Origin: Longimicrobiales bacterium
GTDB lineage: Bacteria > Gemmatimonadota > Gemmatimonadetes > Longimicrobiales > Gaopeijiaceae
Assembly: GCA_029245345.1 (NCBI GenBank)
Contig: JAQWPM010000006.1
Coordinates: 1 to 64,000 of the forward strand
Direction: 5' to 3'
DNA: 64,000 bases
Below, in pieces: positions 40,601-61,641 of this stretch (position 1 is the stretch's first letter; each line of letters begins with the position of its first letter). Position numbers and translations under genes: made by a program. The notes beneath the pieces were generated by a model. The model saw only the letters and a program-made list of their open reading frames with translations. It had not been told where the DNA came from and did no database searches.

Positions 40601-40836
40601 CTGATTAGGAAAGCGAACGCCGGCACGTATACGACCATCACGAATGGGCTCGCAATGAACACGTAGGGGATCTTCTCGAACCCGACCCGAGCCAAAAACA
40701 GTGTGTCAGCCGCAGTCAGGCCCACCATCACGCCAGCCTGAATTAGTCCCGCGAGTGCCGCGAACATCAGGACCTTACGACCTTCGCCTGGCTCGACCTT
40801 GAAGAGCCTACGAGTCAGTGAACTGGACTCGCTCAG
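37678..40836 (-). CDS. ATP/ADP-translocase-like transporter with HEAT repeats and cNMP-binding domain
   Basis: The 1052-residue product has an N-terminal MFS/Npt-type membrane domain of about 11-12 helices (residues about 15-440), a cytoplasmic HEAT-like helical region (about 450-900) and a C-terminal cNMP-binding-like domain (LQNIALRAIVEEVPAGTTLFSGDDPAKSVWVLIEG). Similar three-part proteins exist in other phyla; their substrates are unknown and nucleotide transport is not shown. No ATG/GTG/TTG start lies after the tssG end. CTG 40836, which overlaps the tssG TGA (CTGA) and has GGAG seven bases upstream, is the best start. ATG further in, at LMFAALAGL, would cut into the first helix. Confidence 0.72.
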   Translation of the reverse strand: MSESSSLTRRLFKVEPGEGRKVLMFAALAGLIQAGVMVGLTAADTLFLARVGFEKIPYVFIASPFVMVVYVPAFAFLISRFGTPRTMLFTLVALIAGGIGLFAAIPNVAQDDQGIGLIYYAARLYSELWYIALYTLFWNFTDTFFDIQDAKRLFPIFSAGSAAGAMVGGGIVAVVSQVTGLRALYLIWSLIALATLPVVSVIRKRYEVLEEGEYEPELGLIDQLRETAKALSRSRFVLILVCTLFAVVVLSSITEYEYLRIFSGPLNEEELGALLGRLLVFVNIFNLFFSLFLFNRLVLAVGVGTVALIQPLAYLAAFYFLLFQGGAAAAIFAFVAVQGILPSIEFNNQNFLFNAVPTGVKQQVRTAVEGMAEPAATALAGLLLLVLAEGFPFVRVAGIGFLLAGGYLAIAILLRSAYLPSLVENLRRGWLDLSRPASEALGGLGPDEKAHLRTIAAGGDGEMAHCALRLLSINDPDAAFEATLEYLPNTPDEKMATARSFIEALLQQAGPDTTRAFLDWVGQARNTRGPGFLEEMGGHGLIMPSEVKGLIDSHRPGEVAAAVIVLWHSWNPQDRLMASERLVRLLGGSVEEVAAGLRVIGRLEDESLASYAASHLFAESPNIRREAMATLRAVVTPDSAALVPDILRALPGADERSEYNGLEALGRIADPTCITRLLELAADFSPPVRRSVLRVLERMGLRSVPSSVAVFTDPRHRYAARAIAARFLGTAARPQLEVAWPGVIDVELERAYRYREFREGLGASPVSTSGIRVLRHFYRDAQERILDFILEILNIAGRLPSHEMLSSSLRSALPKERANALETVEQGVPRSLFKRLKPLLLGAGSAVANSEERNRKDLISTNAVLDAALVSPFAVEASAAADALWVEEHPEMLTRLRGRLPELHGQIFRETVVKLAADGQEVMTPVDIMDALAAAPFFEALTVADLQNIALRAIVEEVPAGTTLFSGDDPAKSVWVLIEGTGVCDGVPIEPGALLGDGALGILETYGSEVVSQGMTLVRVPTDMIMDLAEASSALGIELIRYASGAYGVGSL

Positions 40837-41942
40837 GAACGTGCTCCGGTCTCGGACGGGGCGTGCGTGCGTGTACCCATGCCGAGGGGCCAGCCCAGGA
40901 TCACGTCGTCCGCGTCCTCTGCGAAATCTCGAGTCTTGAGCCAGGAGGTGAGTCCTAACCGAGAAGACGTGGAGCCAGTGGTCAAAACAGTGCCCGGAAC
41001 CTGTTCTCTTTCTAAGATCAGGCGTACCGCGAAATCGAGATCGTCGCGAAGGTACCAACTCACCATGTCGGTCAGCGGGCCGAGGGAATCGCCTCCGGGA
41101 AGAAAGCGCTCGAAGGCATCGAAATCGACCGGGCCCACGACGATTTCGATCATCCCTTGTTGATCCCAGACGCGACCGCCCATGACCGCGTCTACGCCTA
41201 GGACGCAACGTCCGTCACGCATGCCGAGCACCGTTCCTTGGTCCTCGCCAAGCTCGTGCCAGCGCCCGATGAACTCCCGGACCCTTATGCGCCCAGTAGG
41301 GCGGCCTGGATCGGGTTGAAGTGCGTGGGCGAAATAGTCCGACAGAAGTCCTTCCAAGCCGACAGCGGTGCGTCGGCTATGGGAGAGCGTGCCGGCGTAA
41401 AAGAGAAGTGAGCGATCCGCGACGTCCATTCGATCGCGCAGCGCATCGGCTCCCATTCCGATCAGGGATAGCCCCATATCGGCTACCCGACTCTTCTCCG
41501 GAGACTGGATCCTCATTCCGACTCGATGCTTCTCCTTTGCTCTGTACAGGAGGGAAACGAGCCGGTGATTGAAGATGTCTAGGAAGTCTCGTGTGGCGGT
41601 GTCTCCAGCCGCGAGCCGATCCAACAACAGCTCGGTGAAGGGCTGGGGGAGGGGCCCCTGACTCCCTGCCAATCCAAGAAAGCTGACGAGGACCTCTGCG
41701 GGCCCATCGTCTTCTCCATCTGGGAGGCTGACGTCAAGAACTTCACTCGCAGGGAAGGAGAGGGTCGGGTCTGAACGGAAGCGGATCGCCTCAAGTGAGG
41801 GGTCAGCACCGGTACCGATCGGTACAGCCTCCGGCCGCATCGTCTCCAGGAGGCGAACCGCCTGGAAAAAATCAAATGCGTAACCTGCCTGCTGTAGTTC
41901 TTCGACTACAGGAAGTCTTTGGTTCCTGCCAGAGCGGGCCAT
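40833..41942 (-). CDS. tssG: T6SS baseplate protein TssG
   Basis: The 369-residue product is a typical TssG (VasB/ImpH): an N-terminal helical segment (VVEELQQAGYAFDFFQAVRLLE), a phage-baseplate-like body with FRSDPTLSFPASEV, VSFLGLAGSQGPLPQPFTELLLDRL and the DFLDIFNHRLVSLLYRAKEKHR motif near residues 115-140. TssG joins TssE, TssF and TssK in the baseplate wedge. Its start overlaps the tssF end by 37 bases; ATG 41942 is preferred to a TTG three codons upstream. Confidence 0.95.
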   Translation of the reverse strand: MARSGRNQRLPVVEELQQAGYAFDFFQAVRLLETMRPEAVPIGTGADPSLEAIRFRSDPTLSFPASEVLDVSLPDGEDDGPAEVLVSFLGLAGSQGPLPQPFTELLLDRLAAGDTATRDFLDIFNHRLVSLLYRAKEKHRVGMRIQSPEKSRVADMGLSLIGMGADALRDRMDVADRSLLFYAGTLSHSRRTAVGLEGLLSDYFAHALQPDPGRPTGRIRVREFIGRWHELGEDQGTVLGMRDGRCVLGVDAVMGGRVWDQQGMIEIVVGPVDFDAFERFLPGGDSLGPLTDMVSWYLRDDLDFAVRLILEREQVPGTVLTTGSTSSRLGLTSWLKTRDFAEDADDVILGWPLGMGTRTHAPSETGARS

Positions 41943-44790: not shown

Positions 44791-46275
44791 TCAGCCACCA
44801 GCTGGTGGCGGCAGCTCCGCGACGAGTCGCATCGAAGCCGTGAGTTCCTCAAGCTGGAAGTGCGGCTTGAGGTAGACGGTAGCCGCGTAGCTTCCCGGCT
44901 TACCTGCAATCTCGACCACATCTACACGTCCTTCACTGAGCGGGTAGGAGGCCTTCGCCGACTGCGGTGCATCATCGTTGATGAGCACATAGTCGGCGAT
45001 CCAACGGTTCAGGAACGTCTCGACATTCCCACGCGTCATGAAGCTTCCAACCTTATCACGCATTATTACCTTCAGATAATGTGCGAAGCGGGAGGCTGCC
45101 ATGACGTACGGAAGCTGTGCCGAGATACGCGCGTTCGCATTGGCCTGTGGCGTGTTGTACACCATTGGCTTCTGCGCCGATGCGCCACCGAAGAATGCCG
45201 CATAGTCGGTCCCCTGACAGTGACACAGTGAGATGAAGCCAAGGTCGTTCAGCTCTTTCTCACGACGATCAGTGATCGCGATTTCGGTCGGGCACTTCAG
45301 CGCGACGTCACCTTCGTCCGTCTTGAAGGTGTGCGCCGGCAGGCCTTCGACCATACCGCCACCTTCTACGCCACGGATTGCCGCTGTCCAGCCGTAAAGC
45401 GAGAAAGCGTTGGTGATCCGCTCACCGAGGGCCCATGCTGCGTTCCCCCAGAGGTACTTCTGGTGGTCCCGTCCATCGACTTCCTCGACGAAGTTGAAGC
45501 CGTCAACCGGCTTCGTGTCGGGGCCGTACGGAAGGCGCATGAGGATGTGCGGAAGCACGAGCGAGACGTATCGCGAATCCTCAGTTGCACGGAACGAGTT
45601 CCACTTGATCAACTCAGAGCTCTCGAAAACCTTCGCGAGATCGCGAGGTGCACCGAGACGGGTGTAGCTCTGGAGGTCGAACATCTTGGGGCTTGCCGCC
45701 GCAATCATCGGGGCATGGGCCGCCGCTGCTACGTTCGAGAGCTTCTCGAGTAGCGCGATGTCCTGTGGGTGACGACCGAACTCAAAGTCGGCCAAGAGGC
45801 AGCTGTACGGGTTACCACCGAAGGTGCCGTATTCCTCTTCGTAGAGGAGTTTGAACAGCCGACTTTGGTCGAACTCGACAGCCTTGTCGAGGTCGTCCTG
45901 AATTTCCTTCTGGCTGGCAGCCAAGACACGGATCTTCAGTCGTGCGCCCGTCTCGGAATTCGAGATCAAGTGCGACAGTCCGCGCCAGCTTCCTTCAAGT
46001 TCTTGGAAATCCGGACTGTGCATGATCTCGTTGAGCTGGTCGCTCAGGAGTTCATCAATTCGAGCAATGCGCTCGTTAATCATTGCTGCCGAGTCCGAAG
46101 ACACGGTGATCTCTTCCGAAAGAATCTGGTTGGCGAACTCACCGACCAAATTCTTTGCATGCTCGGCCTGGGCGTCGTCCTGCGCCATGTTGCCCTCGGA
46201 AATGATCCGGTCGAGGATACTCATGTCCTCGGTCGCAGCGCCCCCTCCTTCGGAGGCCGCTTGTTCTTTTGCCAT
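44791..46275 (-). CDS. tssC: T6SS sheath large subunit TssC (VipB)
   Basis: The 494-residue product has a short polar N-terminus (MAKEQAASEGGG), an Asp/Glu-rich segment and the helical part AKNLVGEFANQILSEEITVS, then IDELLSDQLNEIMHSPDFQELEGSWRGLSHLI, the family's hallmark. Later motifs are YSCLLADFEFG, NAAWALGERI, DRREKELNDLGFISLCHCQGTDYAAFFG and YRNWDYVLI-like NRWIADYVLINDDAP. It forms the contractile sheath with TssB. The start ATG 46275 has AGAGAGGG four bases upstream; the frame extends upstream into tssB but without a ribosome site. Bases 46003-46170 are partly duplicated inside tssM. Confidence 0.97.
   Translation of the reverse strand: MAKEQAASEGGGAATEDMSILDRIISEGNMAQDDAQAEHAKNLVGEFANQILSEEITVSSDSAAMINERIARIDELLSDQLNEIMHSPDFQELEGSWRGLSHLISNSETGARLKIRVLAASQKEIQDDLDKAVEFDQSRLFKLLYEEEYGTFGGNPYSCLLADFEFGRHPQDIALLEKLSNVAAAAHAPMIAAASPKMFDLQSYTRLGAPRDLAKVFESSELIKWNSFRATEDSRYVSLVLPHILMRLPYGPDTKPVDGFNFVEEVDGRDHQKYLWGNAAWALGERITNAFSLYGWTAAIRGVEGGGMVEGLPAHTFKTDEGDVALKCPTEIAITDRREKELNDLGFISLCHCQGTDYAAFFGGASAQKPMVYNTPQANANARISAQLPYVMAASRFAHYLKVIMRDKVGSFMTRGNVETFLNRWIADYVLINDDAPQSAKASYPLSEGRVDVVEIAGKPGSYAATVYLKPHFQLEELTASMRLVAELPPPAGG
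46003..46170 (-). repeat. tssC segment that is duplicated in tssM (donor copy)
   Basis: This block encodes TssC residues of about 37-92. It aligns without gaps to 51302-51469 at about 149 of 168 bases. The block here is part of the conserved TssC fold, so this copy is presumably the source. Confidence 0.9.
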
Positions 46276-46342
46276 CTGACCCTCTCTAGATCTAATGTTG
46301 TGACGTTTACGTTTCTGGTCGCTTGAAGTCGGACACCGGAAA

Positions 46343-46855
46343 TTACTCGGCGTCGTCCTCGGCCGGAGCCGTCGCTTCCTGGATCTCCTTGAGGCCATCC
46401 GTGTTCTCGACAATCTCGATCAGTAGGCGATCGAGGTCGTCGTTACCATCGAGCTTAGCGCGGAGGTCGCTCAGACGCTGACGCGCCTCGAACAGCTTCC
46501 GAAGTGGCTCGACCTGCTGAACTACGGATACCGGATCAAAGTCCTCCATCGACTCGAAATTCAGCTCGACGTTGAACTTGCTGTCTTCGTCGGTGAGCTG
46601 ATTGTCGACCTGGAACGCGAGACGCGGGCCGACTGACTTCATGACATCATTGAAGTTGTCACGGTCGACCTGGACGAACTTGCGCTCTTTCATCGGAGCG
46701 GGTGCTTCGGCGGGCTTGCCTGCCAGATCAGAAATCACGCCCATGACGAAGGGGAGTTCCTTCTTCTGGATCGCGTCCCCGATCTCGACGTCGTACGTAA
46801 TCTGCACCCTGGGCGGGCGCACTCGGTCCAGCGTATGCTGCGTGCTTTCTGCCAT
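46343..46855 (-). CDS. tssB: T6SS sheath small subunit TssB (VipA)
   Basis: The 170-residue product shows VQITYDVEIGDAIQKKELPFVMGVISDLAG and MKERKFVQVDRDNFNDVMKSVGPRLAFQVDNQL, then LNFESMEDFDPVSVVQQVEPL, all matching TssB. It ends with a long helix that pairs with TssC in the sheath. It is 67 bp upstream of tssC. No separate promoter is clear. Confidence 0.97.
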   Translation of the reverse strand: MAESTQHTLDRVRPPRVQITYDVEIGDAIQKKELPFVMGVISDLAGKPAEAPAPMKERKFVQVDRDNFNDVMKSVGPRLAFQVDNQLTDEDSKFNVELNFESMEDFDPVSVVQQVEPLRKLFEARQRLSDLRAKLDGNDDLDRLLIEIVENTDGLKEIQEATAPAEDDAE

Positions 46856-46967: not shown

Positions 46968-48077
46968 TCATTCTTCTTCGACTCCTTGGTCGATTCCGAG
47001 GAACGTGAACAGCGCCTCCAGATTAAGTCCTTTCCGAACGAATTCGCGTAACAAGTCATCGAGGGTCTTGTCACCCCACGAGACTGCTTTCATCACTAAA
47101 TAAGGCGTCGGGCTGTGAGGCTCGACTTGCTTCAGATACCGTGCTGCATTGAGCAGCACCTGGTAGGCCTCCTGCCGACTGCGGATCGCACCCGATTCGG
47201 CGACGGACGGTACGTTGCCAGACGAAACGGATGCTGGCTCGCTGCCTTCCTCCTCCTTCGTATCCACTGGTACCTCCACGATGTCGGGTCTGAAGCTCCC
47301 TTCTTTCATCACTACGCTGATCCAGGTCAGGATCTCTGCGAGTCCTTCCCTGAATCGAACCAAGCTCGGGGATTCGTCTCCCAGCCTGTCATCCAAAAAG
47401 CTCTCTAATGCCCGCGTCGTTTCGATCGCGTCCTCAAGTACAGCTGAGGTGTCACGGAAGAACGACTCCGGCGTCTTCCGGCAAAGCCCCCGAAACGACT
47501 CGATGCTGTGAGACTCGGCGATCTCCGCCTTGAGTTCCTCATCATCGGGGCTTCGGGCCCCTACCTTGTCGAGCCACAAGGCTCGATTCCACTCATCCCA
47601 CGTCGCCTCAGAGCTCTGGTCAGTCTGTGGATCCACCACAACCAGCTGTCCGAATGAAGCGGGTACTTTCTCGTTGATCCAGACGAAAGGAGCAATCCGG
47701 AAGTCGATCCCCTGCGAAATCTCGGGGTGGACCATCTCCCAATAACTCTCCGACAACTGGAGCAGCACTTCCATCCCACGCCGTAGCCCGGGCAACCCTT
47801 CTAGATGGAGCCATGACTCCATGAGCCATGCCGCAATCTGAAGGTCCTTCGTTTCTTGAATCAGAGCATCTTCGCAGAGTTGCCTGACCTCCTTCCAATT
47901 CGCCGACTTTAGGTCCCGATCCCAAATCCCCCGGGTCGCGACCGAGTCGTCCGCTCGTCTCGCATCCTTGATGCGATCGTAAATCTCATCGTACTGCAAT
48001 GAACGACCCGATGGGTCCGCCCCGGGAACGGGACGCAGGAGCGCCTCAAGGGCGACCACCTGTTGTTCGGCGATCAT
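46968..48077 (-). CDS. tssA: T6SS protein TssA (ImpA-type)
   Basis: The 369-residue product has the N-terminal ImpA_N domain (LLRPVPGADPSGRSLQYDEIYDRIKDARRAD, W-x-x-V-x-x-L segment NWKEVRQLCEDAL, LLQLSESYWEMVHPE) and a short C-terminal helical domain with SRQEAYQVLLNAARYLKQVEPHSPTPYLVMKAVSW, a typical TssA ending. TssA primes tube-sheath polymerisation. It is the first gene of the second leftward transcription unit, with a promoter at 48163-48191. Confidence 0.95.
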   Translation of the reverse strand: MIAEQQVVALEALLRPVPGADPSGRSLQYDEIYDRIKDARRADDSVATRGIWDRDLKSANWKEVRQLCEDALIQETKDLQIAAWLMESWLHLEGLPGLRRGMEVLLQLSESYWEMVHPEISQGIDFRIAPFVWINEKVPASFGQLVVVDPQTDQSSEATWDEWNRALWLDKVGARSPDDEELKAEIAESHSIESFRGLCRKTPESFFRDTSAVLEDAIETTRALESFLDDRLGDESPSLVRFREGLAEILTWISVVMKEGSFRPDIVEVPVDTKEEEGSEPASVSSGNVPSVAESGAIRSRQEAYQVLLNAARYLKQVEPHSPTPYLVMKAVSWGDKTLDDLLREFVRKGLNLEALFTFLGIDQGVEEE

Positions 48078-48259: not shown

Positions 48260-51200
48260 TTATCGACCCGCGGGTGGGGGCGGGCGAGTCGGAAAACGAG
48301 GAAAGATGACGGTTCCGCCACCTGTTGAGGGAGTCAGTCCGAGTTGAATGAAAACGCTCGCGAGCCCATCAACCGGATCTGCTGTCTCAGACACCGCGTC
48401 CCGGGCCCTGGTGACGATTCTGGGATTGACCGTGGAACGGTCGACGATTGGATCGCCGGTCAGTGCCGCAGCGTCAGGACGGTGCTCCATGAGAAGCCTG
48501 AGCAGCGCCCACGGTCCAGCGTACCGCCACGTGACGGTTGCGTCGTCCACAGAGATTGCCTGACTCGCGGATTGACGAACAGGGCGCCGCGCAGACTCTG
48601 ACGCCCACGTCAGACTCAGCGCAACAACATCGCCCACTCGCCATGTGCTCTCTCCGACTCCGCCGGCGCCTTGGTAGGTCACCGCTTGGCCGGCTAGGCT
48701 CAAGCGCCATTCGACGATCTGGTCGGCTCGAAGCTCGGAATCCCGGTTCGTCCTCATTTGGGTTCGGACGTCCAGGGCGCCGGGGACTCCTTCTTCGTTC
48801 GGCAATACCACCGGACCGAGAAGTGCTCGGATCTCCACCATTTGGCGGAAGAAGTCGACGGGCACTACATCGTCCAGGAGAGTCTGCACAACCGTGATGG
48901 GGTCTCCGTCGAGCGGGGCAGTGACCTGGTCCCATAGTTCGAGGAACTCCAACACGGACTCGACGTCGGCATCCGGCGCATCCGGCCGCGTGTCCAGGTC
49001 GGCGAACGGGAATCGGCCAGCCAACCGTTCGCCGTGGAACTGGGCGAGCTGGTTGTACCCGCCTAAGAGAGCCATCCGGGCCAAGTCACGGCACCGGTCT
49101 GCGAGCGACGTTCTCAACTGACGCTCGACCGACCCGAAGTAGCTTTGGGATGGTGCTCCGCTCTCAGTCACACCGCCCGAGCCGCACTGAGACAGTGTGG
49201 CGATCCCCATGTCCTGTCGGACGAACTGCTCCATCGCGTCCAGCTCGTTCCCCGGGGCCTTGTTCTCGTGCTCGTCTAGGGTGCGCACAATGGTGCGCCA
49301 GCGCTGAATGAGGTTGTCCGTGCCAGGTGCGATTCGCCGGCCGTCGTAGCGGAGAAGCTCTGTAACGGGCGGGAGGGCGAGATATCCCAACACGGGTGCG
49401 GCATACTCAGCTAGCATCTTCAGTGACTGTCGCTGCTGGGCCAGATAGGCTTCGAGCCCGGCCGCGTCGGGTACTCCGAAACCGACCAGAGAGGCAGGCC
49501 GGGTACCACGCCACACAGCGAGGTTTCCGTTCACCGGCTCATATAGACGGGCGCTGCTCAGAAGCATGTCGATTTCGCTGAGCAGGTCGGAAGCTTCGAG
49601 GATGATGGCCTCGGCCACGGCGGTCCCGGCAGGAGTCCCACCGACTTGCTCGTCCATCTCCAACATTCCGACGAGTCTGCGCGCGGCCTGATCGAATCCC
49701 GCCAGGCGAGCCTGGAGTTCCTCCTCCTGCCACGCCCGGCCTTCGCCTCCGACACTCACCTCGAACGTCATCGCCCGGCTTAAGGACCACCGCACGCGCT
49801 CCTCGAGGGAGCGACCCGCCACGCCTAGGGCCAATCCGCGGAGCTCCGGCGGGACTCCTGTGGAGGTATCCCCGCGAGCGGCCTGGTATTCAGCGAAGTA
49901 GCCGAGAGCTTCTTCCAGGGGACCCATGTTCCAGGTCGGCCGGCCGCCCAGCATGGGTTGCGGAGGGCCGCCCACGCCGCCTATAGGAGCCATGAAGCCA
50001 CGGTTGAGTAGGCTGGCCAGCGCTATGCGGAGCGCACCGAGGCGCGGGGCCAGGTCGATGCGAGTGCCACTGCTTGGCGCTACCCGACCGGTGGAGTCCG
50101 CCTGGACTGGCAGTGATCTCGACAGGAGGGCCAGCCCGTTAGAAAGCTCTGTTAGGTGCCGCCTCCGTGTCGCATCGAAGGCCTGCGTGAAGAGGGTTTG
50201 GAAAGCGGCTCGGTCCATCAGGTCTGGATTCACCGGAATAGAATCGAGCATGACCTGGAGCACAGGGACGAGGGGAGCTTCGGTATCGAACCACATGCTG
50301 TCCGAAGACACCAGAAGGTCATGGACCTGCCCGACATCTTGCCAAAGTTGGCGTAGGTCGGACGCGGTGAATGCCGGATTGGACGCTCCAGCGAAAAAAC
50401 TTTGTTTGAGCCCCTCCACCGCATTAAGGAGGCGCTGGTAAAAACGTTCCAGCAAGAAGGTCGCGGATTCGGTTGCTCTGACTTCGAAGCCCGCCCAATC
50501 AGCTGTGCCGACCGGGAGTACCGATGCACCTGCTAGGCCGGCGCGATAGAATTCGTCGTTTTCGAAGAAGTCCTGCGGTAGCTGGGTTTCGTAGTACCAG
50601 AAGAAGAGATCTGCGAAGACCTGGAGTTCTCCCGCCCCGAGGGCCGAAAGCCGATTGAAGCGGTCGGCGTTCTCCAGGAATTGCCCGATTTCGCTCAGGT
50701 ATCCGACCAGCACTTCGTACTCCTGGAACCGATTGGTCATTCGGACCAACTGATCCGAATCATCCAGTGGGATCCGGCCACCCAGTGTCAATGCCCACTG
50801 TTTGTCGGTCATCGTGTCGGCCCACTCGGTGATGCCTGTTCGGAAGGTCGGCAAGATTACGTCTTGGAACCCCTCCGTCATGTTGTCCTGGATGTGCTGG
50901 TCCAGGTCGTCAAAAAACGAAGTCGGTAGGAAGACAGACCTGAATGGGCCAGCTTCCAAGCTCGACATTTGCTCAAGAAGGGAGCGCACGGCTCTCTCTT
51001 CAGCGGCCTGCGACAATCCTGCTTGATCCTCGCCGAAGTGTTCGGTGATGCTGGTCCCGACCGAGTCGAGCAACTCGATCAGTGGGCCAGCGTCGCGTCG
51101 GAGTGACGCCTGCCCGAAGAACATCCCAGGAAGGCCCACCAGCACGAGAAGAGCTGCCGCGACCTGGATCCAGCGAATGGCTCGGTTTCGGTCTAGGAAT

Positions 51201-52513
51201 CCCTTGGCAAAGCCTCGTGCCAATCCTCGTTCTGGGAAGATCTTCTGAGTGAAGAGGCGGCTGGAGAAAACCGATTCCTCGTGATGCTCTTCCACAACTG
51301 ATTTGAAGTCCTGACGATGCATGATCTCGTTGAGCTGATCGCTCAGGAGTTCATCCATTTGAGCAATGCGCTCGTTGGACATTGCTGCCGAGTCCGAAGA
51401 CACGGTGGTCTCTTCCGAAAGAACTTGGTTGTCGAACTCCCCGGCCAAATTCTTTGGATGCTCGGCCTCAACCTGTTCGCCCTTCTCGACCATCCCGGAG
51501 AAGTAGACACCTCGGAGGAAGAAGCTCTCGTGGTAGGCGCTGTCCTCGAATACCTCTGCGAGGATGGTGCGCGTAGCCCAGCGGAGTTCGTCGGCGACGT
51601 CCGGAAAGCGGAAGACGGCGTCGGCGTCTGCGAGTTGGGTGCGGGAAGCGAGGACTTCAGTGGACCGGTCTCTCAGGGAATCGGCGATCCCGTCGAGCGC
51701 CTCGTCCACCCACTCCTCCCTGAACGAAGCTTCCAGCGAGTATGGACTCGACCAGCCGAAGATGTCTTGATGGAAACGGCGAGGGACGGCGTTGACGAAA
51801 CTGGAGAATCCGGGGAGGCGATCGGCCTGCGTCAGGAGGACGTAGACGGGAAATCGGACCCCCAGTTCGGCCTGAGCTTCGCGCAGACGGCGGAACAGGG
51901 CTCCGCCGATCTCACGGAGTTCTTCTTTTGAACGGCCGCGCCAGGATCGAAGGTCTGCTGCGGATAGCGTCAGGACCACGCCGTCGATAGGCCGTTCGGG
52001 GCGGTGTCGTTTTAGGAGCGCCAGCAGCCGTTGCCAGCCCCTCTCGTCTGAAGTCAGGTCCTTCTTGAGGACCACGCTCCCGGTGACGTCGAGCACCACG
52101 CCGCCGTCAAAGAAGTGCCACCCTACCGTGTGGCTGGCCGCCGAAAGGTCTGCATTGCCCTGGACTCGACGCGGCAGGGGGATCTGCCGAAGGAAGGTGC
52201 TGTTCCCACTGCCGGTGGGCCCCAGCATCATGTACCAGGGGATGCGATAGCGGTAGCCGGCGCCGGAGGTGACGCCGCGAAGCGTTTTCATGCCACGTCG
52301 GAACGACAGCTCCAAGTCAGCGGCCTGCGTCATGGACGCAATCGGAGCAGGCATCTCCTCGGGAGCCTTAACTGTCTTGGATTTCTCGTCCGGCTTTTCT
52401 CGCGAGCGCCTGAGCACGATCACGATGAACACCACGACCGCGATCACCGTGATGATGAGCACGGCCAGTACGGTCCTGAAGTGCTCGGTCAGGAAGTTCA
52501 GGATCTCGGTCAC
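48260..52513 (-). CDS. tssM: T6SS inner-membrane protein TssM with a TssC-like insertion and altered Walker A
   Basis: The 1417-residue product has an N-terminal helix (TVLAVLIITVIAVVVFIVIVL), a cytoplasmic NTPase-like domain with MLGPTGSGNSTFLRQIPLP at about residue 97, and a second helix near RWIQVAAALLVLVGLPGMFFG (about residue 430). A long periplasmic region extends to the end. The Walker A lysine is Asn (N104), and the switch-like D-T-A-G-x-x of TssM is DVTGSV, so nucleotide hydrolysis is probably lost. Residues of about 348-404 copy TssC 37-92 and sit in the linker after FLRGVYF. The start overlaps tssL by 4 bp. TssM connects TssL and TssJ across the envelope. Confidence 0.95.
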   Translation of the reverse strand: MTEILNFLTEHFRTVLAVLIITVIAVVVFIVIVLRRSREKPDEKSKTVKAPEEMPAPIASMTQAADLELSFRRGMKTLRGVTSGAGYRYRIPWYMMLGPTGSGNSTFLRQIPLPRRVQGNADLSAASHTVGWHFFDGGVVLDVTGSVVLKKDLTSDERGWQRLLALLKRHRPERPIDGVVLTLSAADLRSWRGRSKEELREIGGALFRRLREAQAELGVRFPVYVLLTQADRLPGFSSFVNAVPRRFHQDIFGWSSPYSLEASFREEWVDEALDGIADSLRDRSTEVLASRTQLADADAVFRFPDVADELRWATRTILAEVFEDSAYHESFFLRGVYFSGMVEKGEQVEAEHPKNLAGEFDNQVLSEETTVSSDSAAMSNERIAQMDELLSDQLNEIMHRQDFKSVVEEHHEESVFSSRLFTQKIFPERGLARGFAKGFLDRNRAIRWIQVAAALLVLVGLPGMFFGQASLRRDAGPLIELLDSVGTSITEHFGEDQAGLSQAAEERAVRSLLEQMSSLEAGPFRSVFLPTSFFDDLDQHIQDNMTEGFQDVILPTFRTGITEWADTMTDKQWALTLGGRIPLDDSDQLVRMTNRFQEYEVLVGYLSEIGQFLENADRFNRLSALGAGELQVFADLFFWYYETQLPQDFFENDEFYRAGLAGASVLPVGTADWAGFEVRATESATFLLERFYQRLLNAVEGLKQSFFAGASNPAFTASDLRQLWQDVGQVHDLLVSSDSMWFDTEAPLVPVLQVMLDSIPVNPDLMDRAAFQTLFTQAFDATRRRHLTELSNGLALLSRSLPVQADSTGRVAPSSGTRIDLAPRLGALRIALASLLNRGFMAPIGGVGGPPQPMLGGRPTWNMGPLEEALGYFAEYQAARGDTSTGVPPELRGLALGVAGRSLEERVRWSLSRAMTFEVSVGGEGRAWQEEELQARLAGFDQAARRLVGMLEMDEQVGGTPAGTAVAEAIILEASDLLSEIDMLLSSARLYEPVNGNLAVWRGTRPASLVGFGVPDAAGLEAYLAQQRQSLKMLAEYAAPVLGYLALPPVTELLRYDGRRIAPGTDNLIQRWRTIVRTLDEHENKAPGNELDAMEQFVRQDMGIATLSQCGSGGVTESGAPSQSYFGSVERQLRTSLADRCRDLARMALLGGYNQLAQFHGERLAGRFPFADLDTRPDAPDADVESVLEFLELWDQVTAPLDGDPITVVQTLLDDVVPVDFFRQMVEIRALLGPVVLPNEEGVPGALDVRTQMRTNRDSELRADQIVEWRLSLAGQAVTYQGAGGVGESTWRVGDVVALSLTWASESARRPVRQSASQAISVDDATVTWRYAGPWALLRLLMEHRPDAAALTGDPIVDRSTVNPRIVTRARDAVSETADPVDGLASVFIQLGLTPSTGGGTVIFPRFPTRPPPPAGR
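51302..51469 (-). repeat. tssC-derived segment inside tssM (recipient copy)
   Basis: In tssM this block keeps the tssC frame and encodes AEHPKNLAGEFDNQVLSEE, then SSDSAAM, and DELLSDQLNEIMH. About 149 of 168 bases match 46003-46170, with no indel. About 13 of 56 codons encode a different residue, so most base changes are non-synonymous. The flanks (GVYFSGMVEKGEQ before, FSSRLFTQKIFPERGLARGF after) are ordinary TssM. Confidence 0.9.
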
Positions 52514-53298
52514 CGGCCAGCCTCCGCCGTCGCGCGGGCTACATCGGCACTTACATCACGAATTCCCTGCGAGACGTCAGTCCAAACAAAATGGGAGAGG
52601 ACGAGATAGCTCCCGATCATGACAAGAAGGACCGCGACCCAGCGCCGCACCGGAGGCAGCCGCAGATTTTCGGTCGAAACGAGCGTGCTTTCCGTCGGTT
52701 GCGAAAACAGCGGATCGATATCGTCTGCGAGCGTTGTTCGGCCCCGGGTGACGAAGTTGAGGAGGCGGCGGCGAAGGCTTTGCAGGCCGCCGGAGTCGCG
52801 TGTGCCTCGATACTTGCCCAAAAAGCCGAGAGAGAGCGCGGAGAGGTAGATCCAAGCCATGTCCCAGTTGGCGTCGTCGCCCTCGGCGAGGAGTGCCTCC
52901 GCTCGTTCTAACACCTGTTCGCCTGCCACGTGGGAGCCGAACATGTGCGTCTCAAGGAGCTCGCGGGACCATGCCTCGCGTCCTTCCCACTCCATGTTTA
53001 CGAGGACCTCGTCAGCGAGTGAGGCCATGACGTACTGGGCCTCGTCCATCCAATCGATACCTTCTGGCCCGAGCGAACGTGTCAGCTCCCGAGCCTGTCC
53101 CTTGAGGAAGTCATGCAGGTGGGTACGCACGCGAGCCACAGCCTTGGAATGGGCGGCCGTGCGGTCTTCCGAGGCTTCACCGGCTCGTTTGGTGAAGTGC
53201 CACGGATCCGCCTCGATATCCGCCCCAATTTCAGAGAGGCTGGTGTAAAAATCCCGGAATGCGCTCGCCAGGATCCGATGCGACCACCCGTCGGTCAT
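52510..53298 (-). CDS. tssL: T6SS inner-membrane protein TssL (DotU-like)
   Basis: The 262-residue product has a cytoplasmic DotU domain with DEAQYVMASLADEVLVNMEWEGREAW and LETHMFGSHVAGEQVLERAEALL, both family signatures, and one C-terminal helix (VAVLLVMIGSYLVLSHFVW). It stops about 25 residues later, so it lacks the OmpA-like peptidoglycan-binding tail found in some TssL forms. It overlaps tssK and tssM by 4 bp each. Confidence 0.95.
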   Translation of the reverse strand: MTDGWSHRILASAFRDFYTSLSEIGADIEADPWHFTKRAGEASEDRTAAHSKAVARVRTHLHDFLKGQARELTRSLGPEGIDWMDEAQYVMASLADEVLVNMEWEGREAWSRELLETHMFGSHVAGEQVLERAEALLAEGDDANWDMAWIYLSALSLGFLGKYRGTRDSGGLQSLRRRLLNFVTRGRTTLADDIDPLFSQPTESTLVSTENLRLPPVRRWVAVLLVMIGSYLVLSHFVWTDVSQGIRDVSADVARATAEAGR

Positions 53299-54626: not shown

Positions 54627-54669
54627 GCTTAGTGCAATCCTGAATGCTGTGAATCAGTGAGTCTAGTGA

Positions 54670-55125
54670 TCACCGGATGCTCTCGATTTCGAATCCCTCG
54701 ACCCGGAGAACAAGGCGAAACTCCTTGAGTGGGTCCACCCGAAGTCGATGTACCCCTTCCGAGAGGTAATCCGAAAACACCACCAGCGCGTAGCCCTTTC
54801 TGTCCGGGAAGGGGAGCCGGTCGAATTCGACCACCTGCCCAGGAACGAACTCCCAGCTGTGATATACGATGTCTTCCGGGTGGTCGCGCACAAGCTGTTC
54901 GCGGTTTTCGAACCACTGGCGAGCGCTCATTTCGGTGACCACGGGGACCAGAGCCTCCGTGCGTACAAGCGCCAGGTCCACGGGCACCGGACTCCTCCGA
55001 TTGGCGTCCGGCGCAGCAACGACCTCGAAGCGCTGAGTCCAAACCATGGTCGCACACCCCGCTGCGCCGATTAGGCAGAGCAGTGAGAGTAGGCAGACGC
55101 CGCGGCGGATCGTCATCAGGTTCAC
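54670..55125 (-). CDS. tssJ: T6SS outer-membrane lipoprotein TssJ-like
   Basis: The 151-residue product has a signal with lipobox IGAAGC and a small beta-sandwich-like domain (VVAAPDANRRSPVPVDLALVRTEAL...). The L-A-L-V pattern with conserved P-V-D and the position between tssK and the SPOR gene fit TssJ, but overall similarity to well-known members is modest. Start GTG 55125 overlaps the upstream TGA (GTGA), with GAAGGA before it. Confidence 0.82.
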   Translation of the reverse strand: MNLMTIRRGVCLLSLLCLIGAAGCATMVWTQRFEVVAAPDANRRSPVPVDLALVRTEALVPVVTEMSARQWFENREQLVRDHPEDIVYHSWEFVPGQVVEFDRLPFPDRKGYALVVFSDYLSEGVHRLRVDPLKEFRLVLRVEGFEIESIR

Positions 55126-55763
55126 CGCTGTCCTTCAAACGGAACCACTACGGCCGGAATCCCTTCGTGCGAGCTGAAGCTCTCTGCCGCGAGGAGGGCT
55201 GAGGCTTCGCTCTCGAACAGCTGAAGGTGAACGCGCTTGATCCACTGTCCAGAGCGATTTCGGGCAGCCACGACCAAAGGGTCGTAGCCCCGCCCTCGCA
55301 GGCTCCCAGCAAATCGGTCGGCGTTTTCTTCCACTCCGAAAGCTCCCAGCTGAACGGCGTAACCGTTCCCTGCGCCCTCAAGGGCAATGGCGCTTGGCAT
55401 TTCTGTAGTCTGAATAAGGTCGGGTGCCGCCGCAGCCAGTGTTCGGCGACGCATGAGTGCGTCGTTCATTGCGACCGTGGCAGGATCCGAAAGCATGGGC
55501 TCCGCGGTGGGCGCTGCTTCGTCGGTCGGAGCATCGGCTGCGGCCAACTGAGTGTTCACCGGATCCGCCGGGAGGCAGGCCGGAGCGTCCTGAAGGTCCA
55601 TAGCTATGGAGACTCCATCTGCGGCCGATCGAAGCTGCGGATCGACGTGCACTCCGTAGCCGACAACCGCTCCGGCCACGAAGCCGAGGCCAAGTAGGGC
55701 CACCATTCCAACAGAGATTTGGATTAGGCCAGTCTTATCTAGGACAACACGTGGGTCGTTCAT
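55122..55763 (-). CDS. SPOR-domain membrane protein in the T6SS operon
   Basis: The 213-residue product has one N-terminal helix (IQISVGMVALLGLGFVAGAVVGYGV), a Pro/Ala-rich linker and a C-terminal SPOR domain (residues about 133-212): GNGYAVQLGAFGVEENADRFAGSLRGRGYDPLVVAA..., with the typical Y-x-V-Q-L-G-A-F start. SPOR domains bind denuded peptidoglycan strands. The gene overlaps tssJ by 4 bp and lies 1 bp from the PAAR-like gene, so it is an operon member. A peptidoglycan anchor of the T6SS membrane complex is the likely role (inference), replacing the missing tail of TssL. Confidence 0.88.
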   Translation of the reverse strand: MNDPRVVLDKTGLIQISVGMVALLGLGFVAGAVVGYGVHVDPQLRSAADGVSIAMDLQDAPACLPADPVNTQLAAADAPTDEAAPTAEPMLSDPATVAMNDALMRRRTLAAAAPDLIQTTEMPSAIALEGAGNGYAVQLGAFGVEENADRFAGSLRGRGYDPLVVAARNRSGQWIKRVHLQLFESEASALLAAESFSSHEGIPAVVVPFEGQR

Positions 55764-56150: not shown

Positions 56151-56948
56151 CTACTCTCCCCTGAATCGCCCGAAGAAGCCGGAGAAGGTGGCCTTTTCAG
56201 CCTTGCCATCCTCTTCTTCCACCCCTTCTGAGCCTCCCTGCAACCCGCTCTCTTCTTCCGCGAGCACTTCCGGTGCCACAACAGCAACTTGCGGGGCGAT
56301 CACTTGCTGATGGATCACCTCGCCCTCGGGATCGTAAATGACAGTCTCACCTTCGATCTCACCATCCACGTATTCCGTTTTCTGTTGGACGGTGCCGTCG
56401 GAGTAGTAGTCGAATGTGACCCCGTTCAACTTCCCGCCCGTGTACAGGGCCCGGCGAGTGACTTCGCCGGCTGGCCCGTACCACAAGGACTCGCCCTCCT
56501 GGGCACCTTCCACGAATTCCATCTTCGATATCAGACGTCCTGACGTATCGAACGTCTTGATCGGTCCGTGCTGTACCCCCGACTTCATCATTACGGTCAT
56601 CGACAGAGCACCGGCGTCGAAAATCTTCACTTCGCCGACCACTGCACCATTGATGTAGTTCGCCTGCTGGGCCGGGCTTCCGGTCTCGTCGAAGATCTCT
56701 GCAAGGCCATGCAGCGCCCCGTCCGCGAAATGCGAACGGCTCTCTAGCGATCCGTCCTCTCGGTAGAGTGTTACCTGGCCGTGAATCTGCTCGCCGCGAA
56801 AGTGTGAGACCTCTTTAATCTGGCCCGCTTCATAGTACTCGGTCACCTCTCGGGCAGTATCCTCAACGGGCTCCCCTCCGTCTAACGGGGGAGTGTCTCC
56901 CTCGAGCACTGTTGGTGCGGCTTCCTTGGTGCCTGGTTCAGTCGTCAT
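56151..56948 (-). CDS. MORN-repeat (YwqK-like) protein
   Basis: The 265-residue product has eight or so MORN_2-type repeats with recurring pattern Y-x-x-G-x-x-x-x-x-x-x-x-G-x-x-x-G-x-x-x-x-Y (for example YYEAGQIKEVSHFRGEQIHGQVTLYREDG) between residues 35 and 215, flanked by acidic low-complexity ends. YwqK-family proteins are often immunity-type proteins near toxin genes; the partner toxin is not seen here. Start ATG 56948 overlaps the vgrG stop by one base (TGATG); the earlier TTG is possible. Its job may be adaptor or immunity (inference). Confidence 0.78.
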   Translation of the reverse strand: MTTEPGTKEAAPTVLEGDTPPLDGGEPVEDTAREVTEYYEAGQIKEVSHFRGEQIHGQVTLYREDGSLESRSHFADGALHGLAEIFDETGSPAQQANYINGAVVGEVKIFDAGALSMTVMMKSGVQHGPIKTFDTSGRLISKMEFVEGAQEGESLWYGPAGEVTRRALYTGGKLNGVTFDYYSDGTVQQKTEYVDGEIEGETVIYDPEGEVIHQQVIAPQVAVVAPEVLAEEESGLQGGSEGVEEEDGKAEKATFSGFFGRFRGE

Positions 56949-58954
56949 CAATTGATCTTCACCATGCCACCTTTCAGGGTCAGCATGCCTCCGCCATCGA
57001 CTGTCTGGGTCGCGCTTCCCTTATTGGTGACCGAAACGCCACCCTCGTTGGTTACGCCGATTGATCCCTTGTTAGTCAGAGAGGTGCCTGCCTCATTGGT
57101 CAGGGCCGTCCCTGACTTGTTGGTGAGCGCGGTGCCGGCCTGGTTCGTCAAAGCGGTACCGGCCTGGTTCGTCAAAGCGGTGCCGGCCTTGTTGGTCAAC
57201 GCCTGCCCGGCCTCGGTATCTAGACCCTGGGCCGCTTTTACCTTCACGGCCTTCTCGGAATCGATCGTGATGCTGCCGCCAGCTTCAATCGTTAGGTCGC
57301 CGGTGACCTTGAGGGTGAAGTCACCCTTTACTTCATGAACGAAGTTGGCCTGGCTGGTGTGCTTCTCGTCGTCTTTGATATCGAGGGTGCGCTTACCCTT
57401 GGTGACGGTGTGGGTCTCGTCTCCCTCGGTGACCGTCACTGTCCGGTTCTTCGTGATGGTCGTCGTCGAGTCGTTGAGGACCTCGGTGGTCATGTCCTTC
57501 TGAGCGTGCATGTAGATCTCTTCGGAGTCCTTCTTGTCTTCGAAGCGGATCTCGTTGAATCCCTCGCCCCCTTTGGAGGTGTTGCTCTTCACGGTCGACT
57601 GCGTCTGGTTAGCCGGGAGAGCGTAGGGGACCGTTTGCTCAGCGTTGTAGACGGATCCCGTGACCAGAGGTCGATCCGGATCTCCGTCTAGGAATGAGAC
57701 CACGACTTCCTGCCCGATTCGGGGAAGGAAGAAGGCGCCCCATTTTTTTCCCGCCCAGCCATGAGTCACTCGGATCCAGCAAGAGCTCTTCTCGTCTCCC
57801 TCGCTGACCCGATCCCAGTGGAAGAGGACCTTGATGCGGCCGAATTTGTCGGTCCAGATTTCCTCGCCCTTCTTGCCCACCACTTTGGCGGTCTGCGTGC
57901 CGGCAATCAGTGGCCGCGCCGTGTGCATGGGGGGGTGGAACGTCACATCGGCGGGAAAAGCGACGAAGCTGTTCCGGTAGTGCGACTGCGTCAGCTGGTG
58001 TTCGACGGACCGAAGCGCCCAGGCTTTGTTGACGTCTTTCCGGGGGTGATCGGCGAGTGTGAATTTGTAACCGGCGCAGAAGCTCGGACTGAACGAGGAG
58101 CCGCTTAGCAGGTCCGCCGCGCCTTCGAGTGCTCCCAAGCGCACCTTGGCCAGCGCCGTGCCATCGGCCTTCTTCGTGAAACGTCCGGGGTAGTCGTAGC
58201 GGGCGAGCTTTCCGCTGCCCGCCTTGGTCTCCAGGTCGGTGGAGGGTGCTTCGAAGGAGTAGTCATCGAGGGCGTAGGTGCCGGTCGTGACGTTGTTCTC
58301 GATGTCACACGCCCACACGACATCGATGTCGTTGTCCTCGGTCGCGGTGCCGCGGAAGCGCATCTTGGCGAGTTCCGGACAGTCCTTGGCCGCAGAGGCG
58401 TCGTCGGCCATGACCAAGGTGTGTTTCGCGTCCGTGTGCTCGAAGAAGTAGTGAATCCCGTCTTCTTCCATGAGCCGCGAGACGAAGTCAAAGGCCGTTT
58501 CACGGTACTGAACGCAGTATTCTCTCGGCTGGTAGGTCGCTTTTAGCGTGAACTTGAAGTCGTTGTATCCCAGGTCTTTGAAGACCTTCTCAATGATCTC
58601 CTGGGTCTTCATTTCCTGGTAGATGCCACAGTCTGACGTCTGGGTCAGCATCCATAGCCAGGGGCGCAGCTCGGCGACATATCGGGTCACGCCGGGGTCG
58701 GTAGCGCCCTGACGTAGGCGGGTGATCATTCCATGGAAGTGCCGCTTCCCTCCATCAGGAAAGTCCACGCTCGCCGAAGCCGGTTTGCCGACCACCTTAC
58801 TGAAGTCGACGGCGTCGTCGTCGGATTCCAACTCTAGGTCGAAACGAAACAAGCCGGACTGGCGCTCCTCTCCCCATAGCTCGCGCAGGCGGAAGGCATC
58901 CTTCCCAGCCCCCGTGGTCACAGTGGCCCAGAGATTCGCCTGATCCATACTCAT
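56948..58954 (-). CDS. vgrG: T6SS spike protein VgrG (TssI)
   Basis: The 668-residue product has the gp27-like half (FRLRELWGEERQSGLFRFDLELESDD, LWMLTQTSDCGIYQEMKTQEIIEKVF, YCVQYRETAFDFVSRLMEEDGIHYFFEH) and the gp5/OB-fold part (EEIWTDKFGRIKVLFHWDR, CWIRVTHGWAGKKWGAFFLPRIGQEVVVSFLDGDPDRPLVTGSVYN). A C-terminal beta-helix ends in about eight 8-residue TNxAGTAL-like repeats and KGGMVKIN. No toxin domain follows, so effectors must bind to it or to the PAAR-like cap. The start overlaps the clpV stop by 4 bp. Confidence 0.97.
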   Translation of the reverse strand: MSMDQANLWATVTTGAGKDAFRLRELWGEERQSGLFRFDLELESDDDAVDFSKVVGKPASASVDFPDGGKRHFHGMITRLRQGATDPGVTRYVAELRPWLWMLTQTSDCGIYQEMKTQEIIEKVFKDLGYNDFKFTLKATYQPREYCVQYRETAFDFVSRLMEEDGIHYFFEHTDAKHTLVMADDASAAKDCPELAKMRFRGTATEDNDIDVVWACDIENNVTTGTYALDDYSFEAPSTDLETKAGSGKLARYDYPGRFTKKADGTALAKVRLGALEGAADLLSGSSFSPSFCAGYKFTLADHPRKDVNKAWALRSVEHQLTQSHYRNSFVAFPADVTFHPPMHTARPLIAGTQTAKVVGKKGEEIWTDKFGRIKVLFHWDRVSEGDEKSSCWIRVTHGWAGKKWGAFFLPRIGQEVVVSFLDGDPDRPLVTGSVYNAEQTVPYALPANQTQSTVKSNTSKGGEGFNEIRFEDKKDSEEIYMHAQKDMTTEVLNDSTTTITKNRTVTVTEGDETHTVTKGKRTLDIKDDEKHTSQANFVHEVKGDFTLKVTGDLTIEAGGSITIDSEKAVKVKAAQGLDTEAGQALTNKAGTALTNQAGTALTNQAGTALTNKSGTALTNEAGTSLTNKGSIGVTNEGGVSVTNKGSATQTVDGGGMLTLKGGMVKIN
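57005..57196 (-). repeat. 24-bp tandem coding repeat in vgrG C-terminus
   Basis: Eight 24-bp units encode TNKAGTAL, two TNQAGTAL, TNKSGTAL, TNEAGTSL and three diverged units. Two adjacent units are almost identical in DNA. The 8-residue period suits a triangular beta-helix like the end of the gp5/VgrG spike. Variation in copy number between strains would change spike length. Confidence 0.85.
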
Positions 58955-61641
58955 TGGACGGCTTGTTCTGGCGGACTGACTTCGTAGTCGAAGCCGCCAT
59001 TCTTACCCAGCTTCACATGGATTTGGCCGACTGGCTCTTCGTCCGCCATGAACTCGAGAAGCTTTGTGGACAGTTCCGGAAGCATGGTGTCCGAGAGGAT
59101 GAAGTCGATGTTGCGCGCCCCGGAATCGACCTCGGTACAGCGATCGGAAATCGCCTGGATGACCTCATCGTCGTATGTGAGGTCGGTCATGTGTTTCTGA
59201 AAGATGCGCCGTTGGATTTCGGCCATCTTCAAGCCGATGATGTCTTGGATTTCGGCATCCCGCAGTGGGTAAAATGGGACCATCGCGAGCCGGCCGAGGA
59301 AAGCCGCCGGGAAATGCTTTCGCAGTTCAGGGCGAAGCGTCTCAACGACCGCGGCTGCAGACGGGCGACTCTCAGATTGCCGGGCCAACTCGGAGATCGT
59401 ATCTCCGCCCACGTTCGACGTCAGGATGATCAGGGTCTGCTTGAAGTCGATCAGTTGCCCCTCCCCATCCTCCATCTGCCCGCGGTCGAAGACCTGATAG
59501 AAGAGCTCCATCACGTCCGGATGTGCCTTTTCCACCTCGTCCAGAAGGACTACGGAATAGGGCCGACGGCGCACGGCTTCGGTCAGTACCCCGCCTGTCC
59601 CGTAACCCACGTACCCTGGAGGGGCCCCCTTGAGCGAGGAGACCGTATGCGCCTCCTGATATTCCGACATGTTGACCACGATCATGTTGCGCTCACCACC
59701 GTAGAGTTCATCGGCGAGCGCTCGTGCCGTCTCGGTTTTTCCGACGCCGCTGGGGCCAGCCAACATGAAGACGCCCGTCGGCTTGTTGGGATCCTCCAAG
59801 CCGGCGCTGGACGTCCCGATGCGTCTGCAGAGTGTCTCGAGCGCCTCCGGCTGGCCGATGACGCGTTCCTCGAGCCTCTGGCGAAGGGAGAGCACTGTCT
59901 TGATCTCGTTGGCGACCATCTTGCCTGCGGGGATTCCGGTCCAGCCCGAAATCACTGAGGCGACAACCCCACCGTCCACGCAGGTCGGGACGAGAGCGTC
60001 TTCGCCCTGGAGATCGGCCAGCTCGGCTTCTAGCCGCATCAGCTCCGGCTGAAGTTCTTCCGGCTCACTAGGCTCGTTTTCATCGACACGGATCGTGCCA
60101 TCCAGGATGCCGTGGATCCGGTCGATCTTTTCGACGATCGCGACTTCGTCTTTCCAACGGTCTGTGAGCGTGGCTCTTCGGACCTTGGCCCGGGCGATAC
60201 CCTTGGTCAGGTGCCTCACTCGGTCGTCGTGGTCGCTACCCGACCGTTGTTCTCGCTCGAGTACCGAGAGCTCCACCTCGTATAGGGATGCCTCGCGAAC
60301 GGCGTCCTCGAGCTGGACTGGCTGGCTCCCCTTGCCGATGGCGACTCGTGCGCACGCTGTGTCCAGTACGCTGACCGCTTTGTCCGGGAGTTGCCGTCCC
60401 GTGATGTAGCGATGCGATAGCTCTACAGCTTCTCGGATCGCGTCGTCGAGGATCCGGACTCCATGATGCCGCTCCAGGTGCCCGACCATCCCGCGCAACA
60501 TGCGTTGGGCGGTTTCCTCGTCGGGCTCGTCTACCTTCACCACTTGGAAGCGACGAGCGAGCGCAGGATCGCGTTCGATGTACTTCTTATATTCGGACCA
60601 AGTCGTCGCGCCGATCGTGCGTAGTTCGCCGCGTGCGAGCGCGGGCTTTAGCAGATTGGCCGCATCGCCCTGACCCTCGCTGCCTCCTGCCCCGATGATC
60701 GTATGGGCCTCGTCGATGAACAGGATGATGGGGGTCACGGCCGAATTGACTTCTTCGATGACGTCTTTGAGCCGTTGCTCGAATTCACCCTTCACACCCG
60801 CGCCAGCCTGCAGCAGCCCTAGGTCCAGAGTGCGGACCGAAGCTTCCTGAAGTGGCTCGGGGACGTCCTTTGCGGCTACGCGCTTCGCAAAACCTTCTAC
60901 GATCGCGGTCTTTCCGACACCGGGCTCACCCGTCAGGATGGGATTGTTCTGGCGGCGGCGCATCAGGATGTCGATGATCTGCCGGATCTCTTCGTCACGC
61001 CCGGTGATGGGATCGATCCCACCAACCAGGGCGAGTGCGGTCAGGTCGACGGTGAACCGGTCGAGGGCCGACTGCCCTTTGGGCCCAGCGCTACTGTGAG
61101 GCGTCGGGGGTGTGGGACCGGCCATCGGGCCGCTCTTTTGATCCGGGCCTGTCTCCGTGCCGCCCCCTTCAGGGGAATGTGCACAGAGTTCCGGGAGCGC
61201 CTCCTCGACCGTCTCACGGTTGAGCCCGAATACGGACGGTGCCGTTTCTTCTAGGCTGCCCCGGACGGTGGGGTTTGACACCGCCGACATAAGGAGGGCA
61301 CCGGAGCGGACACGGTCATCGTGCAAGAGAAGCGATGAGACTCCCCAAGCAGACTCGAGCAGGCGCACCACATTTGGCGAAAATGCCGGTGTCCGAGAGT
61401 TGCCCCGCTTGAACCCGTCGATGCCGGCGGTGAGTTCAGCTTGGAGCGTGGCCTCTTCGATCCGGAAATGGCGCAGGATTACGCCAAAGTCCGTACCCGG
61501 TATGGCGAGGAGCGCCTTGAACAGGTGCTCGACCTCCACATTGTAGTTTGACTGCGCAACGCAGAGCTCAGCCGCTCCCTCCATGGCCTTTCGGCACAGT
61601 GGGTTCAGCTTCTCGATGAGCGCCTTCAGCTCGATTTTCAT
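58951..61641 (-). CDS. clpV: T6SS ATPase ClpV (TssH)
   Basis: The 896-residue product has an N-terminal ClpN-like helical domain ([22 protein letters not shown]-type start, [25 protein letters not shown]), AAA-1 ([14 protein letters not shown] and [14 protein letters not shown]), a middle coiled coil and AAA-2 ([46 protein letters not shown]). Both Walker motifs are intact. ClpV recycles the contracted sheath. It heads the first transcription unit; the divergent pair starting at 61938 shares its promoter region. Confidence 0.97.

Follow-up and report, generated by a model that had tools for sequence, protein, structure and literature searches.

Asparagine at the Walker A lysine position and a linker insert copied from tssC in an IcmF-family protein encoded at the tssM position of a Longimicrobiales T6SS cluster

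In a window of 64,000 nucleotides from a Longimicrobiales bacterium (the whole stretch of DNA analyzed, from contig JAQWPM010000006.1 of assembly GCA_029245345.1; Longimicrobiales are part of Gemmatimonadota), a T6SS cluster has, in the tssM position, a gene for an IcmF-family protein with asparagine in place of the Walker A lysine; this gene carries about 183 bp of the neighboring tssC in frame. This is probably a scaffold TssM with a degenerate nucleotide site and a tolerated, likely neutral linker insertion. Under this explanation the lysine would have been lost in the lineage to which the genome belongs, and the cytoplasmic domain would have a structural role in the membrane complex, presumably without normal nucleotide binding or hydrolysis. 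Separately, the segment of approximately 183 bp of tssC was copied in frame into a length-variable linker running from the G-like domain to the second membrane segment, where it would most likely be a tolerated extension without function.

The gene in the tssM position and its surroundings

The IcmF-family gene occupies positions 48260..52513 of the minus strand (an ORF of 1417 aa; PF14331, TIGR03348), begins at a GTG codon and overlaps the end of the DotU/TssL gene directly upstream (tssL, 52510..53298, minus strand; PF09850, TIGR03349). The IcmF-related N-terminal domain PF14331 scores 185.4 bits against a cut-off of 25 and is the sole family at E <= 0.001 in a Pfam scan of the protein, which at that level matched no other IcmF domain over the C-terminal part. 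TIGR03348, whose best stretch covers residues 10-475, reaches 235.3 bits and misses its equivalog cut-off of 388.15 bits, so the product is called an IcmF-family protein at the position of TssM here and is not filed as an equivalog. A hydropathy scan, the sole basis for membrane segments here, gave two transmembrane-like peaks, centered on residues 24 and 458; three membrane segments are described for other TssMs in the excerpts of PMC9972734 and PMC3213119 (the papers cited by PMC number are represented here by excerpts). The predicted structure of residues 1-480, made from a 12-sequence alignment, has a mean pLDDT of 78.9, and its best PDB matches in Foldseek are GTP-binding proteins (3kxi, E 3.0e-05; EngB 7szs, E 3.5e-04), with TM-scores that are low (0.18-0.19 by query). 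The frame is open over its full length and most conserved columns of the G-like domain are kept.

Pfam and NCBIfam matches place genes for TssA, TssB, TssC, TssD (Hcp), TssE, TssF, TssG, TssK, TssL, VgrG and a ClpV-type ATPase in the stretch around tssM. All of the following lie on the minus strand: tssA at 46968..48077 (PF06812, TIGR03363), tssB, the sheath small subunit, at 46343..46855 (PF05591, TIGR03358), the ORF of tssC, the sheath large subunit, at 44791..46413 (PF05943, PF18945, TIGR03355 at 688.9 bits), and the ClpV-type AAA+ ATPase gene of the cluster at 58951..61641 (AAA_2, AAA_lid_9, ClpB_D2-small). As listed, the tssC ORF (44791-46413) starts at TTG, and an ATG 46 codons later (MAKEQ...) is the likelier start. 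No TssJ was recognized among the 17 ORFs scanned with Pfam. Between tssK and a gene for a SPOR-domain protein (55122-55763), itself within the cluster, lies an ORF of 169 aa (54629-55138) that has no Pfam or NCBIfam match and a composition resembling a non-coding frame. Adjoining vgrG is a gene for a MORN_2-repeat protein (56151-56951), which at a guess could be a cargo or adaptor, and beside the cluster an ORF of 1176 aa (37678-41208) has weak matches to TLC ATP/ADP-transporter and HEAT-repeat families. The other genome of the same genus that was examined (G001) gave no TssM match at E <= 0.001, which makes the system patchy.

The P-loop and the rest of the G-like domain

The P-loop (Walker A/G1) reads GPTGSGNST at residues 98-106 (52196..52222, minus strand; codons GGG CCC ACC GGC AGT GGG AAC AGC ACC). 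The asparagine noted at the lysine position in the preliminary description was confirmed as residue 104, codon AAC, at window positions 52202..52204 on the minus strand by arithmetic from the gene start. Both P-loop glycines are kept. Measured against nucleotide-hydrolyzing TssMs of the Agrobacterium type, the protein has Asn104 where these have the Walker A lysine and possesses the DxxG or Walker B-like motif (DVTG).

At E <= 1e-25 this TssM had matches in 12 of the 394 class genomes searched, its own included, and searches of the family (121 genomes), order (154) and phylum (395) found no genome beyond these 12. In the alignment of the 12 class sequences the column is lysine in ten, asparagine here and threonine in the sister genome G096, which belongs to the same family as the window genome. 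The sister has the closest TssM found (58.7% identity over residues 60-340), with a P-loop of GPVGSGTSS and threonine encoded by ACG. Lysine in close relatives had been proposed as the sign of a sequencing or strain-specific change; the closest TssM found has threonine and the ten more distant class relatives have lysine, in a comparison that has one sister genome behind it. The sister locus is also represented by JANQLR010000409.1, from a Longimicrobiales genome bin; this contig matches the G096 stretch exactly over its first 12,000 bases and carries the best TssC match in named genomes, 86% identical to that of the window genome.

A wider set was drawn from 80 named TssC loci, in which 17 TssM ORFs with the N domain were detected and the other 63 loci gave no TssM match. 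Repeats were merged (L083 with G096, on identical DNA; L098 was taken as G348, on equal ORF length and motifs), and the column count leaves out the fragment L099, which is without the region, as well as the weaker distant matches L009-L018. Among the 26 distinct TssMs with the column, lysine occurs in 22, asparagine in this one, threonine in two (G096 and L096 from Singulisphaera) and arginine in one (L105 from Oceanobacter). The Singulisphaera TssM (L096, 2994-4502) has no recognizable P-loop, and the Oceanobacter TssM (L105, 17697-21476) reads GTDNSGRHD. Loss of the lysine is uncommon in this limited sample, common to the sister and paralleled elsewhere. Asparagine here and threonine in the sister could reflect one ancestral loss followed by further change, or two separate losses. 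Walker motifs are reported to be present in some but not all TssMs (PMC9972734), and the loss of the lysine is an already known kind of change.

The preliminary description also counted DVTG as a second lost motif, a departure from DTAG. This motif (residues 142-145; 52079..52090, minus strand, by arithmetic) is G3-like and keeps the Asp and Gly of DxxG, and the DTAG form was found in some more distant TssMs. The pattern D/E-[VLI]-x-G is usual in the class: because it is present in 12 of 12 class sequences, all ten with lysine included (as D-V/L/I-x-G or E-V-P-G), we reject the loss of both motifs. At the G4-like position, T-K/R-C-D is found in 8 of the 10 lysine-bearing class relatives, TQAD here, with Asp kept (residues 228-231; 51821..51832, minus strand, again by arithmetic), and TRAN in the sister. 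Furthermore, of the 73 columns on which 8 or more of the 10 lysine-bearing relatives agree, this protein keeps 63. Deviations in motif columns and in other conserved columns number 2/9 vs 8/64 for this protein and 3/9 vs 11/64 for the sister, and motif columns are not clearly more changed than the others. Judged from the one residue at position 104, nucleotide binding would be lost; weak binding is possible, given the DxxG and G4-like Asp that are kept here.

The tssC-derived insert

The TssC-like insertion in this protein proved to be real. Residues 346-406 (51296..51478, minus strand), in the linker that precedes the second membrane segment, are a copy of codons 79-139 of the tssC ORF as listed (45997..46179, minus strand), with 44 of 61 amino acids and, ungapped, 149 of 167 bases (89%) identical to a source 5.3 kb away (blastp E 3e-23). 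Insert and tssC form the only repeat family of at least 40 nt reported in positions 37000-64000 of the window, and a search of the genome with the insert DNA found these same two places. A plain assembly chimera was considered for the insert and rejected, since identity to tssC is 89% and not 100% and the segment is in frame. Between residues 340 and 415 the protein has 75 residues, compared with 11 to 56 in the other 11 class TssMs; in the wider TssM set this linker ranges from 7 to 111 residues, and the length of the insert-bearing linker alone is unremarkable.

The insert is absent from the 11 aligned class TssMs, that of the sister included. When the TssC segment was compared with 29 TssM sequences, only this protein matched (E 7.5e-26; the next best E was 1.5), and a search of the 394 class genomes with the insert returned 57 matches in 55 genomes: 56 fall within open frames 447-595 codons long, a length that suits TssC, and the other is the insert itself. 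The protein as a whole is not a TssC sheath subunit: it matches positions 18-77 of the 473 in TIGR03355, at 28.4 vs 271.5 bits. The one match in a sequence search of the PDB with this TssM was a TssC (9n4v), by way of the insert only. No mention of a tssC-derived insert in TssM was noticed in the literature, judged from search listings.

Mapped through 5n8n_B, on the assumption that its chain starts at residue 38 of P. aeruginosa TssC1, codons 79-139 correspond to TssC1 residues 34-94; the traced part of the TssC1 chain starts at residue 38 (PMC5807055). TssC1 helices 39-54 and 66-86 form a three-helix bundle with TssB1 117-133 (PMC5807055), and the insert region spans the equivalents of both. 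With the TssB-packing helices covered, a TssB-binding mimic is conceivable. Recruitment of ClpV by the insert is disfavored: the ClpV-binding helix of EAEC TssC1 is N-terminal, at residues 23-35 (PMC5048182), and by position would lie at about residues 64-78 of the TssC studied here, before the copied codons. The excerpts of PMC5797969 concern the TssB linker.

Divergence at silent sites dates the copy relative to the sister. Insert and tssC differ by a dS of 0.21; across these codons, silent sites are saturated between the tssC genes of the window genome and the sister (pS 0.76), which makes the copy much younger than the split from the sister. Insert and tssC are separated by 20 replacement and 7 silent differences; the replacement fraction of 0.74 compares with 0.749 in simulations without selection (p = 1.0), in a test built on 27 differences that takes the insert and tssC branches together as an average. 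Over the same codons the corresponding counts for the window genome's tssC vs that of the sister are 20:30, which differs from the 20:7 of the insert (Fisher p = 0.008). The dN/dS of the insert is 0.71 across all 61 codons and drops to 0.49 across 55 and 0.45 across the inner 50 (9:5), and codons 113-132 of the insert have two amino-acid changes, with 18 of 20 residues kept; the inner codons may be under some constraint. The lack of stop codons in the insert says little, because 43% of the simulated neutral cases had none. The insert has polar residues at three positions (A94D, I102T and I112S) where all 29 other TssCs compared are hydrophobic. In the structure prediction, residues 346-374, the region of the first helix, have pLDDT below 50, and a second helix is predicted at 379-401.

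Competing explanations and known systems

The preliminary description had read the altered P-loop and the insertion together as a TssM rebuilt for a different mode of control. The missing lysine and the TssC-derived insert both stand; the second lost motif and the joint rebuild do not. The sister has neither the lysine nor the insert, and the insert arose long after the split between the two and shows no clear selection, its changes fitting neutral drift; the joint rebuild is therefore unsupported. The insert might instead be a working mimic: by capturing TssB or the sheath, it would allow TssM to hold the sheath at the membrane complex or gate it there, in place of control by nucleotide. That it covers the TssC helices that pack with the TssB helix (PMC5807055), lies in frame on the same side as the G-like domain, with one predicted membrane segment before it and the other after it, and retains a predicted second helix, a well-kept stretch at codons 113-132 and a lower dN/dS over its inner 50 codons would all suit such a role. 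We nevertheless regard it as unlikely, given replacement and silent changes that over all 61 codons are indistinguishable from neutral, the three hydrophobic positions turned polar, the low-confidence first helix region and the sister that does without the insert. The fuller history, in which a TssM that had abandoned nucleotide control later copied from the sheath gene a mimic of two helices, able to grip TssB and to tether the sheath to the membrane complex or gate it there, seems quite improbable. The evidence leans toward the tssC-to-tssM copy being a recent harmless accident rather than a new control device.

Two further explanations concern the P-loop itself. A base error or strain-specific mutation in an otherwise nucleotide-binding TssM could account for the asparagine codon: the genome is a draft of 30 contigs with completeness 98.03 and contamination 3.74, a single base change turns AAC into AAG or AAA, and lysine is present in 10 of 10 more distant class relatives. 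It is very improbable because the closest relative found is also without the lysine, and that relative departs at G4 as well. Alternatively, the protein may still cycle nucleotide, with Asn104 or another residue replacing lysine in a non-canonical P-loop, which would suit the two P-loop glycines, the DxxG and the G4-like Asp kept here; the loss of the G4-like Asp from the sister (TRAN) fits relaxed nucleotide recognition in the lineage instead, and we hold continued cycling to be distinctly unlikely. The preferred reading remains the scaffold TssM with a degenerate nucleotide site and a tolerated linker insertion.

How much the TssM nucleotide site matters varies with the system studied (PMC9972734). 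ATPase activity is required of TssM in Agrobacterium (PMC3953482; PMC9972734), substitutions in Walker A of Edwardsiella EvpO left the profile of secreted proteins unaffected (PMC9972734), and Vibrio fischeri TssM has Walker A and B and a GTP motif, their role being described as unknown (PMC8508121). The excerpts of PMC4256274, PMC7545191, PMC3213119, PMC4374921, PMC3702570 and PMC3326028 hold no direct evidence on the motif, or citations only. A natural pair without the key lysine, beside lysine-bearing relatives, offers a comparison that is testable with purified domains. Moreover, this tssM gene, with its piece of tssC, is a clear-cut example of a machine component that took up a fragment from a second component.

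Compared with known systems, the protein resembles TssM/IcmF subunits (PF14331, TIGR03348) in its IcmF-related N domain, in the place of its gene immediately behind tssL within a T6SS cluster, in a GTPase-like domain with membrane segments on either side and in a long C-terminal part. It is unlike them in scoring below the TIGR03348 cut-off, in having two and not three membrane segments as predicted by hydropathy, in the change of the P-loop lysine to asparagine and in carrying the TssC-derived insert. The 61 residues of the insert are like the N-terminal helices of TssC/VipB (sheath domain 3), being 72% identical to the genome's own TssC and covering both TssC helices of the three-helix bundle. 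In contrast to TssC/VipB, they sit inside a TssM, without the rest of the sheath protein or the upstream region presumed to bind ClpV, and several hydrophobic positions have become polar. With TssMs that are without Walker motifs or do not need them, such as EvpO (PMC9972734), the protein shares a Walker A that is absent or dispensable; unlike the EvpO substitutions, the change is natural, is common to the sister lineage and is known here from sequence alone.
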